Positions 26,619 to 30,662 of a DNA stretch of 64,000 bases are shown here, in pieces; within the stretch, counting starts at the first letter, position 1, and the number at the start of each line of letters is the position of its first letter. The DNA is taken from positions 1 through 64,000 of the forward strand of contig NZ_OZ060398.1 of NCBI RefSeq assembly GCF_964059085.1, in the 5' to 3' direction. A program made the translations under genes and the position numbers. The notes below the pieces were generated by a model. That model ran no database searches. It was not told the DNA's origin and saw only the letters and a program-made list of their open reading frames with translations. The DNA comes from Buchnera aphidicola (Mindarus abietinus) (GTDB taxonomy: Bacteria > Pseudomonadota > Gammaproteobacteria > Enterobacterales > Enterobacteriaceae).

Positions 26619-28892
26619 ATGACAGTATTTAATCATATACTTGGTTTTCCAAGAATTGGATCAAAAAGAGAGTTAAAAAAAGCTCAGGAAGAGTATTGGT
26701 CTGGCAAGATAACAAAAAAAGAGTTGTTTTCTGTAGGTAAAAAATTGCGGAAAGAAAATTGGAAACAACAAAAAAAATATGGAATTGATTTTTTACCAGT
26801 AGGAGATTTTTCTTGGTATGATCAAGTACTAACAACAAGTATGTTTTTAGGAAATATACCAATTCGACATAAAAATTCTGATTCTTCTGTAGATATAGAT
26901 ACGATGTTTCGTATTGCTAGAGGTTCAGCTCCAAAAGGAAAATCTGTTCCTGCTTCTGAGATGACAAAATGGTTTAATACTAACTATCATTATATAGTTC
27001 CTGAATTTTATAAAAATCAAGAATTTTCTTATTCTTGGAGTCAATTATTAGAAGAAGTTGATGAAGCTTTATCATTAGGCTATAAAATTAAACCGATTTT
27101 ATTAGGACCTTTAACATATTTGTGGTTAGGAAAAATTAAAGGTGATTATTTTAATCGAATAGATTTATTACATAAAATATTACCTATTTATAAACATGTT
27201 TTGACAGAGTTATCTAATAGAGGTATTTCTTGGGTTCAAATAGATGAACCAATTTTAGGATTAGAACTTTCTAATAAATGGAAAGAAGGTTTTAAATTTG
27301 CTTACCGTTTTTTAGGGGATGATTATAAAAATTTATTGTTAACAACTTATTTTGAAGATATTAATCTTAATTTAGATTTAATAGTGCAGTTACCTGTTGC
27401 TGGATTACACATAGATTTACTATCTGGAAATTATGATTTATTAGCTTTAAACTCAAAATTACCTAAAGATTGGTTATTATCTTTAGGGATGGTTAATGGA
27501 CGTAACATTTGGAAAACAGATTTAGTTTATTGGTTTAATAAACTTATGCCAATATTAAGTAAAAGAAAAAATATTTGGGTCGGATCTTCATGTTCATTAT
27601 TACATTCTCCTATTGATTTAAATCTTGAAAAAAATTTAAATCAAGAAATAAAGAATTGGTTTTCTTTTGCTTTACAAAAATGTTTTGAATTATCTATGTT
27701 TTCTAAATCTTTAAATAATAAGGATATAACAGGTATTGAAGAATGGAGTAATTTATTACATACACGAAATGTTTCAGAATTTGTTCATAATAAAAATGTT
27801 CAAGATAGATTAGAAAAACTTAATTGTCAAAATTTAGATAGAAAACATCCTTATTCAATACGTTTCTCTAAACAAAAAGAAGCATTGAAATTGCCAATTT
27901 TTCCTACTACTACTATAGGGTCTTTTCCTCAAACTGAGTCTATTAGAAAGGTAAGAAGAGATTTTAAAAGTGGTGTAGTTTCTATTGAAAATTATAATAA
28001 ACATATTCAAGATAATATAAAAAAAGTAATTTCAGAACAAGAATTATTGGATATTGATGTGTTAGTTCATGGAGAAGTTGAACGTAATGATATGGTGGAA
28101 TATTTTGGAGAAAATTTAAACGGTTTTGTTTTTACTGATTATGGTTGGGTTCAAAGTTATGGATCTCGTTGTGTTAAACCTCCTGTAATTATAGGAGATA
28201 TTTATCGAACAAAAGCTATTACTGTTAAATGGTCTAAATATGCTCAGTCTTTAACTAACAAATTAGTTAAAGGAATGCTAACTGGTCCAATAACAATTTT
28301 ATGTTGGTCTTTTCTTAGAGAAGATGTTTCAAAGGAAATAATAGCTAAACAGATTTCATTATCGTTACAAGATGAAGTATCAGATTTAGAATCAGCAGGT
28401 ATTAAAATTATTCAAATAGATGAACCAGCATTAAGAGAAGGTTTACCGTTAAGAAAAAAAGATTGGGAAAATTATCTTTCTTGGGCAGTGAATGCTTTTA
28501 AATTAACATGTGTTAATGTAAAGAGTACTACTCAAATACATACTCATATGTGTTATTGTGAATTTGAAGATATAATGAATGCTATTGTACGTTTAGATGC
28601 TGATGTTATCACGATTGAAACATCTCGTTCCGATATGCAATTGTTAGAATTTTTCAAAAACTTTAAATATCCTAATGGGATTGGTCCGGGAGTATATGAT
28701 ATTCACTCTCCTAATGTACCAAAAATTCAAGATATAGAGAAGTTATTAAAAAAAGCATTAACTTATATTTCAAAACAAAATTTATGGGTTAATCCTGATT
28801 GTGGTTTAAAAACAAGAACTTGGATTGAAACAAGAAAAGCTTTAAAGAATATGGTGATTGCTGCTAAAAATATGCGATTACATGCATCGTAA
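26619..28892 (+). CDS. metE: Cobalamin-independent methionine synthase
   Basis: MetE transfers the methyl group of methyl-tetrahydrofolate triglutamate to homocysteine, the last step of methionine synthesis; MetF (49960) supplies the methyl donor. The 757-residue protein (753 in E. coli) begins [19 protein letters not shown]. Zinc ligands are visible in THMCYCEF and in NPDCGLKTR near the C-terminus; [10 protein letters not shown] marks the C-terminal barrel. No metR regulator gene lies upstream. The last 27 codons and the stop lie inside a perfect inverted repeat whose other arm is beyond the gene. Confidence 0.98.
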
Positions 28893-29058
28893 TCCTGTAT
28901 AGAAAAATGGTCAAAAAGAAGGCGCTTTTTTTGTAAAAAAGCGCCTTCTTTTTGACCATTTTTCTATACAGGATTACGATGCATGTAATCGCATATTTTT
29001 AGCAGCAATCACCATATTCTTTAAAGCTTTTCTTGTTTCAATCCAAGTTCTTGTTTTT
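28808..29058. repeat. Perfect 2 x 124-base inverted repeat spanning the metE 3' end
   Basis: Bases 28808-28931 are exactly reverse-complementary to 28935-29058, with a TGT loop at 28932-28934. The left arm contains the last 82 coding bases and stop codon of metE; the right arm is an inverted copy of them (29058 back to 28974). The symmetry ends at a T tract, where six T face five A. The core around GGCGCTTTTTT looks like a normal terminator hairpin. It separates the convergent metE and purH genes, whose 3' ends both read into it. Confidence 0.95.
28908..28958. terminator. GC-containing terminator core between metE and purH
   Basis: The centre of the long inverted repeat has the stem AGAAGGCGCTTTTTT with AAAAAAGCGCCTTCT around a three-base loop, with T-rich sequence on both exits. 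It is suited to stop convergent transcription from metE and purH and is probably the ancestral element around which the longer repeat arose. Confidence 0.7.
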
Positions 29059-29090
29059 TACAATGATAAAAAAATAATTATTTTTATTTT

Positions 29091-30662
29091 TTAATGTTTG
29101 AAATGACGAGAATTAGTAAAAATCATAGCTATTTTATATTTATTAGCTTCTTTTAAGACTTCTTCGTCCCTAATAGAACCGCCTGGTTGTATAATAGTTT
29201 TTATATTAAATTTATTTGCTTCTTTAACTGAATCTGAAAATGGTAAAAATGCATCGGATGCCATAATTATATTTTTATAGTTTTTTTTATTTTGATTTAA
29301 TAATTTCATATTAGCTATTTTAACAGAACATAAACGACTTGTTTGTCCTGCTCCTATTCCAATAGTAACTTGATTTTTTACATAAACGATTCCATTTGAT
29401 TTAATAAATTTAACTATTTTCCAAGCAAAAATAGCGTCTTTTTTTTCTTTTTCATTTGGAACTCTTTTCGTTGGAATTTTCCATTTATTCATATCAATTA
29501 ATAACTGATCTTTTTCTTGAATTAAAAGCCCATTCGTTACAGACCTAAAATCTAAAGAATTTTTTTTATTTATAAAATTACCAACAGAAAGTAATCGGAT
29601 ATTTGGTTTTTTTTGAAAAATTTTTAATGATTTTTTAGTAATATCTGGAAAAATAATAACTTCAACAAATTGTTTATTTAATATTTCTACAGCTGTAGAA
29701 GAATCCAAAATCTTATTAAAAGCAATAATTCCTCCAAATGCAGAAGATGGATCGCTTTCATAAGCAAGTATATAAGCTTGATGTAAACTTTTTCCACTAG
29801 CTACAGCACAAGGATTTCCATGTTTAATTATTACACAAGTAGGTTTAGTAAATTCTTTTACACATTCTAAAGCTATATCAGCATCGTAGATATTATTAAA
29901 TGATAATTCTTTTCCTTGAATTTTTTTGACATTTCCAATAGATCCAGAAGAAATTTCTTTTTCTACATAAAAAGATCCCTTTTGATGTTGATTTTCTCCA
30001 TAAGAAAGATTATTTTTTTTAGAAAATTGTAAATTTAATATTTCTGGAAAATTTTCTTTTTTTATTTTTAAGTTATTAACTTTTTTTTCAAAAAAATTAG
30101 ATATTCCTACTTCATAAATAGCAGTATATTTAAAAGCTTTCATAGCTAATCGCATTCTTTCATTTATAGATAATGTATTTTTTTCAAGATGCTCGTCGAA
30201 TAATGAATAATCTTTATAATCAACAAGAATTGAAACACGTTCATAATTTTTAGCAGCAGCACGAACTATGGTTGGTCCTCCTATGTCTATATATTTTAAA
30301 ACTTCTTGTATCTTTTCATTTTTTATCTTTTTTTTTTCATTAAAAGGATAAAAATTAGCTATTACTAGATCAATAGGAATAATAGAGTATTTATTAATAA
30401 TAGAATCATCTATTCCTTTTCTATATAAAATACCAGCATAAATTTGATAATGTAATGTTTTTAATCGACCATCCATAATTTCTGGAAAATTAATATAACG
30501 AGAAATATTTGTAACAGAAATTTTATTTTTTCTTAATAAATTTGCTGTTCCTTCAGTGGAAAATAGTTTAACGTTTTTTTGTATTAATTTTTTAGCAAAC
30601 TCAACAATTCCTGATTTATCAAATACACTAATTAAAGCAGTTTTAATATTTTTTAATTTCAT
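29091..30662 (-). CDS. purH: Bifunctional AICAR transformylase / IMP cyclohydrolase
   Basis: PurH formylates AICAR and cyclises it to IMP. The 523-residue protein (529 in E. coli) has the IMP cyclohydrolase domain (SVFDKSGIVEFAKKL, STEGTANLL, then DGRLKTLH) and the transformylase domain (ELSFNNIYDADIALECV, IIKHGNPCAVA, SDAFLPFSDSV and the C-terminal IIQPGGSIRDEEV). In Buchnera the AICAR comes mainly from histidine synthesis (family knowledge). The purD gene that follows purH in E. coli is absent. Confidence 0.97.
   Translation of the reverse strand: MKLKNIKTALISVFDKSGIVEFAKKLIQKNVKLFSTEGTANLLRKNKISVTNISRYINFPEIMDGRLKTLHYQIYAGILYRKGIDDSIINKYSIIPIDLVIANFYPFNEKKKIKNEKIQEVLKYIDIGGPTIVRAAAKNYERVSILVDYKDYSLFDEHLEKNTLSINERMRLAMKAFKYTAIYEVGISNFFEKKVNNLKIKKENFPEILNLQFSKKNNLSYGENQHQKGSFYVEKEISSGSIGNVKKIQGKELSFNNIYDADIALECVKEFTKPTCVIIKHGNPCAVASGKSLHQAYILAYESDPSSAFGGIIAFNKILDSSTAVEILNKQFVEVIIFPDITKKSLKIFQKKPNIRLLSVGNFINKKNSLDFRSVTNGLLIQEKDQLLIDMNKWKIPTKRVPNEKEKKDAIFAWKIVKFIKSNGIVYVKNQVTIGIGAGQTSRLCSVKIANMKLLNQNKKNYKNIIMASDAFLPFSDSVKEANKFNIKTIIQPGGSIRDEEVLKEANKYKIAMIFTNSRHFKH

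Follow-up and report, generated by a model that had tools for sequence, protein, structure and literature searches.

A long perfect palindrome over the 3' end of metE in Buchnera, shared by related genomes and probably maintained by correction between its arms

The 3' end of metE in the window (the whole stretch of 64,000 nucleotides of Buchnera DNA analysed here) is covered by a perfect palindrome. It probably arose on the metE terminator, and repeated intrastrand template switching or repair of a hairpin probably keeps its arms free of mismatches. On comparison with the sequences of related genomes, the metE palindrome is not a one-off and is probably not an artefact.

Structure of the palindrome and its terminator-like core

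The sequence-only reading had described a perfect inverted repeat of 2 x 124 bases around a three-base loop, and an inverted-repeat search confirmed this. The arms were 100% complementary over 124 nt and the identity of left and right arm was confirmed letter by letter. The region contains the following features:

26619-28892, + strand: metE, B12-independent methionine synthase, 757 aa (ORF; NCBIfam TIGR01371, 1084 bits, cut-off 930)
28808-28931, + strand: left arm, 124 nt, with the end of metE, the stop codon and 39 nt of spacer (inverted-repeat search)
28910-28956, both strands: terminator-like hairpin at the axis (terminator scan, fold and alignment; a consensus match)
28932-28934: loop TGT, 3 nt, at the axis (inverted-repeat search and sequence)
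28935-29058, - strand: right arm, 124 nt, a non-coding inverted copy of the left arm that ends at a T tract
29059-29090: AT-rich spacer of 32 nt, from the right arm to the purH stop codon (sequence and ORF list)
29091-30662, - strand: purH, 523 aa, convergent with metE (ORF; NCBIfam TIGR00355, 594 bits, cut-off 528)

The coordinates also bear out the claim that the arm holds the last 82 coding bases of metE (28808-28889) and its stop codon (28890-28892), which are followed by 39 spacer bases. In ten first-order Markov versions of the window the longest arm was 12–13 nt and none reached 20 nt, and the second-longest palindrome of the window itself has arms of 19 nt. A chance origin of the metE palindrome is therefore excluded.

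A search of the window's own genome (551,523 bases, 4 contigs) with positions 28700-29150 returned the region itself, its mirror and three short matches of 26–58 bases. With no other full copies, the right arm does not belong to a dispersed repeat family, and a mobile element with terminal inverted repeats was ruled out on the same ground. In the 164 kb sampled of this genome, the metE palindrome was the only long one. Rfam 15 gave 48 matches up to E = 1 for positions 28500-29300, largely to hairpin models (e.g. microRNA precursors); none reached its gathering score, so that no known structured RNA family was identified. The second contig of the genome resembles leucine plasmids, and the nearest named sequences are those of Buchnera from Mindarus japonicus (88%) and M. 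keteleerifoliae (82%).

At the axis, GAAGGCGC (28918-28925) pairs with GCGCCTTC (28941-28948), with T5 beyond the stem in each direction. The terminator scan found 6 sites here, on both strands, versus 0.2 in shuffles, and the fold of 28890-28960 had z = -10. The GC-bearing stem and the T tract on each strand match the consensus of a bidirectional intrinsic terminator. The stem length does not: 124 pairs, versus best stems of 6–19 at the other 33 of the 34 tandem or convergent junctions in the window with a gap of more than 15 nt (7–15 at the five convergent ones among those 33). By these signals the core appears terminator-like, but the palindrome as a whole is no ordinary terminator. Neither is it a general trait of terminators, since it is absent at 33 of the 34 junctions of the window and such palindromes are rare in 1,044 kb from 26 genomes.

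The palindrome in related genomes

Genera are given here by labels (g1, g120, g45 and g92); g1 consists of the window's genome and two relatives, G001 and G002. The sequence-only reading had proposed a comparison of the spacer behind metE in related Buchnera, and both relatives turned out to carry the palindrome at the same metE codons. It is thus present in all three g1 genomes and perfect in each, with arms of 146 nt and a loop of 1 nt in G001 and arms of 129 nt without a loop in G002 (which the gapped scan writes as 128 nt with a loop of 2). The outer ends fall within 3 nt of each other, at an A/T tract in all three genomes. Between the g1 species the arms differ by 10–17%. The core AATGGTCAAAAAGAAGGCGC is unchanged and the left half of the axis hairpin is identical in the alignment of the three genomes; elsewhere there are substitutions, all of them copied in the right arm. 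In G001 the coding part has gained six bases by insertion and the spacer is longer, and both changes are mirrored in its right arm. A recent origin, which had been suggested to account for the perfect identity, is disfavoured because species differing by 10–17% share the palindrome and its boundary. The first 25 nt of the spacer after metE in G001 (L017 868-900) have a G + C content of 44%, mirrored in both arms; the mean in 40 non-palindromic relatives is 13.5%.

The sample comprised 54 metE 3' ends and is a selection of relatives: the three of g1 and 51 further ones, namely 20 of the 24 matched relatives of 0.4–0.9 Mb, 20 picked from a longer list and 11 more, six of which are the remainder of genus g45. 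A contig scan with metE returned 31 distant loci, with no Buchnera among them. A gapped scan served for the count, which took in palindromes with arms of 50 nt or more and no more than one difference between them; ungapped scans overlook the palindrome of G293 and shorten other arms. G229 (14 differences, loop 69) and G296 (9 differences, loop 154) were left out although their alignments exceed 50 nt.

Qualifying palindromes were found at 13 of the 54 metE ends, in four genera (g1 3/3, g120 2/3, g45 7/11 and g92 1/4), and at none of the 33 metE ends from eleven other genera. All 13 start within metE, 26 to 93 bases ahead of the last base of the stop codon. Within g45, where several members are without a palindrome, arm length varies from 51 to 110 nt. 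The outer ends of four of the seven g45 palindromes (G259, G394, G395 and G396) lie together; that of G393 lies about 5 nt further in, that of G325 farther out and that of G381 less far. One g45 genome, G179, was scored as a miss; its assembly is broken at the metE 3' end, where a scrambled duplicate and an inverted repeat of 21 nt border an N gap (L094 589-760). It looks as if this assembly failed at a palindrome, and its short metE end may be false.

In a tree of metE, purH, rpoB and rpoC from 26 genomes, g45 and g92 were sisters (support 96), g120 grouped with g74 (68) and g1 stood apart; backbone supports were 36–75. Because the genera in between are without a palindrome and the cores differ between the palindromic genera, we favour two or more separate origins, perhaps four. 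A single ancient origin followed by many losses is the alternative.

Maintenance of the two arms

The 13 arm pairs, with 1,145 aligned positions, contained one mismatch, a G-T pair in G396, and two one-base indels. In g1, g120 and g45 together, 85 alignment columns show differences between species, and in 84 of these the two arms agree; the disagreeing column is in g120, at the indel of G293. For the 12 genomes with a partner in the same genus, drift since the nearest split would give approximately 135 substitutions versus the one seen, an expectation that holds only if each palindrome predates the split, because independent re-formation also yields perfect arms. In a simple simulation over a range of our own choosing, random ends coincided as observed with a probability of 0.004 for the three of g1 and 0.007 for the four among the seven of g45. 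The simplest reading of these alignments would be common descent within each genus with continued correction, and the G-T mismatch and the two one-base indels are the kind of state that would await such correction. These figures support the suggestion, also made from the sequence alone, of ongoing conversion between the arms.

Third-position GC was 35/220 in the arm codons versus 215/2225 upstream (p = 0.007, with kinship ignored). At the same place in 40 non-palindromic loci (G179 dropped) it was not raised (84/999 versus 619/6570, p = 0.32). Taken by genome, it was higher in the arm in eight of the 13 and lower in five, three of which have none. This is a hint of GC-biased hairpin repair.

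RecA was found in none of 21 genomes (0/3 and 0/18), which include all 13 palindromic ones, and in 14 of 14 controls. RuvC was found in none of nine genomes (controls 8/14, including E. coli) and the SbcD C-terminal domain in none of the three g1 genomes, the only ones searched for it (controls 6/14, including E. coli); MutS was present in three of three genomes (controls 11/14). RecA and RuvC are also missing from non-palindromic relatives, so their losses do not explain which genomes carry the palindrome, but they may permit it.

Quasipalindrome correction is known from classical work in E. coli, an organism in which SbcCD cuts long palindromes. Its operation by replication template switching has been described for E. 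coli and yeast (in the part of PMC8604942 consulted). Three properties of a quasipalindrome corrected in this way were found at metE: the arms are close and near-perfect (124 nt, 100%, loop 3), they change together (84/85 columns, which hinges on common descent within each genus), and the process does not need RecA, a family with 0/21 hits here.

We propose that during replication the growing strand turned back on itself at the terminator hairpin, was extended by a complement of the metE end and went back to its normal template at the A/T tract. A fold-back at the hairpin with a return at a T tract was already part of the sequence-only reading; the terminator-like signals on both strands at the axis and the A/T tract at the outer end in three of three g1 genomes agree with it, and the fold-back step itself we infer. 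Given common descent in the genus, the arms would since have evolved in concert, with nearly all substitutions and indels that separate the species occurring in both. Homogenisation would be RecA-independent quasipalindrome correction, in which the palindrome forms an extruded hairpin, one arm serves polymerase or mismatch repair as the template for the other, and selection on MetE filters the outcome. The absence of SbcCD would let a palindrome of approximately 250 bp persist, one that E. coli would be expected to cut. No function is needed for the palindrome.

It is unlikely that selection keeps the hairpin by compensatory changes, with a stable RNA at the 3' end of metE (or of the opposite gene) needed for termination, stability or metE dosage; the RNA of the opposite gene would have an identical 3' sequence. 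The predicted RNA fold of the palindrome (-205.9 kcal/mol) would suit such a role, as would the fact that metE is affected in four genera and accounts for 10 of the 12 long palindromes in the 1,044 kb sampled. However, selection on RNA tolerates G-U pairs and mismatches, and the lone G-T in 1,145 aligned pairs is unlike selection on an RNA stem. Many relatives have short terminators at metE, a transcript stopping at the terminator would exclude the outer right arm, and the gene downstream varies.

We consider it quite unlikely that each species formed the palindrome anew and recently at an attractive site, the hairpin and the fixed A/T tracts repeating fold-back and return, without any correction from arm to arm. 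Palindrome boundaries do lie at A/T tracts, those of g120 and the commonest of g45 are at similar codons (the LKNM region), and the variable arm lengths in g45, together with its members that lack a palindrome, would fit repeated formation. Against this, the g1 ends fall within 3 nt and four of the seven g45 ends together, at the probabilities given above for a simulation range of our choosing, and the three differences between arms look like newer, uncorrected changes in older palindromes.

A sequencing or assembly artefact, whether from a hairpin that primed its own extension or from a chimeric inverted junction at the terminator, is very improbable. Fold-back would indeed reproduce the arm of the species concerned and leave no mismatch, the reads behind two Mindarus relatives were Illumina 2 x 150, too short for the palindrome (PMC11193766, in part), and G179 has its gap and scrambled copy exactly at the metE end. 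But a self-primed molecule never rejoins the purH side, so that every species would require another join, again at these metE codons; the remaining gene junctions of these assemblies are for the most part unaffected; more than one study seems to lie behind the assemblies, as 10 of the 13 genomes with a palindrome, among them that of the window, were not matched in the text of PMC11193766; and G179 suggests the reverse error, an assembler breaking on a real palindrome. The sequence-only reading had left room for an artefact, which is disfavoured because in 13 assemblies from four genera the boundaries are particular to the genus, the loops differ and a few differences between the arms stand uncorrected.

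Recurrence at metE and relation to known systems

In the 1,044 kb from 26 genomes, which were chosen mostly to include metE so that hot spots elsewhere may be missed, an ungapped search found 12 palindromes whose arms measure 50 nt or more with no more than one mismatch, 10 of them at metE. Two AT-only arrays in G325 (3 and 8 mismatches) were excluded from the 12; AT-only near-palindromic arrays lie near the contig start in this genome (L130 119-421). G223 has a perfect palindrome with 66-nt arms and a loop of 10 over the start codon of an ORF that we take to be ligA-like (L154 6063-6204); long palindromes thus also arise away from terminators. The remaining one of the 12, in G293, is perfect too; it has 59-nt arms and a run of six G, unusual for so AT-rich a genome, and occupies the gap ahead of a presumably secE-like ORF (L168 16662-16787).

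The gene after metE is purH, a YicC-family gene in g45 or, in tandem, a TrkH-like gene in G278 (scores below the curated cut-offs), which rules out a dependence on convergence with purH. With the downstream neighbour changing, metE is the constant element. A metE-specific mutational cause or a role in metE expression is needed, and high expression is one conceivable cause; 10 of 12 at metE is not predicted by a purely mutational process and counts against the best explanation, template switching or hairpin repair on a terminator seed. A wider reading, in which the palindrome was gained at least two times in Buchnera and long held, with RecA-independent, perhaps GC-biased conversion, and was favoured at metE as the giant hairpin acts in metE expression, is doubtful.

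Several known systems resemble the metE palindrome, as far as the consulted parts of the respective papers go. In those of PMC8604942, intrastrand template switching homogenises the arms of inverted repeats, in coding DNA too, but the repeats are short, whereas at metE the arms are up to 146 nt long, run over the end of a gene and were compared across species in a recA-less lineage. Nematomorph mitochondria (PMC6649704, in part) have long perfect repeats that touch coding sequence, with arms that are the same within and different between species and for which template switching was proposed. Those palindromes are mitochondrial and many per genome, with both arms coding; that at metE is bacterial, centred on a terminator, has a non-coding right arm and is the only one in the 164 kb sampled. 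Template switching in RNA hairpins (PMC8794818, in part) makes a perfect stem in a single event and later events restore pairing, yet the stems belong to RNA genes and are short, versus a 250-bp DNA palindrome over the end of a protein gene. The palindromes of Blochmannia (PMC3017870, in part), also insect endosymbionts, measure 62–136 bp and all but two are at least partly intergenic; unlike the metE palindrome they are half as long, selection was proposed for them, and their arms were not compared between species at one gene in the part consulted.

A literature search, mostly by titles, gave no report of a metE palindrome or of template switching in Buchnera. The main text of the 2024 Buchnera genome paper (PMC11193766) contains neither 'palindrom' nor 'inverted', and metE is unmentioned in a Buchnera and a Carsonella sRNA paper. 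The process itself is already known; what is new, as far as we found, is that it persists across the end of a gene in bacteria lacking recA and that it recurs at metE.

For sequencing work, short-read assemblies may break at such palindromes, of which G179 seems an example. The palindromes are a natural archive, built up over a long time, of correction between arms in bacteria without detected recA, and with 13 of them at homologous positions and of varied length, the rate, direction and bias of template-switch correction would be estimable from the sequences. Their recurrence at one gene raises a testable question on metE.
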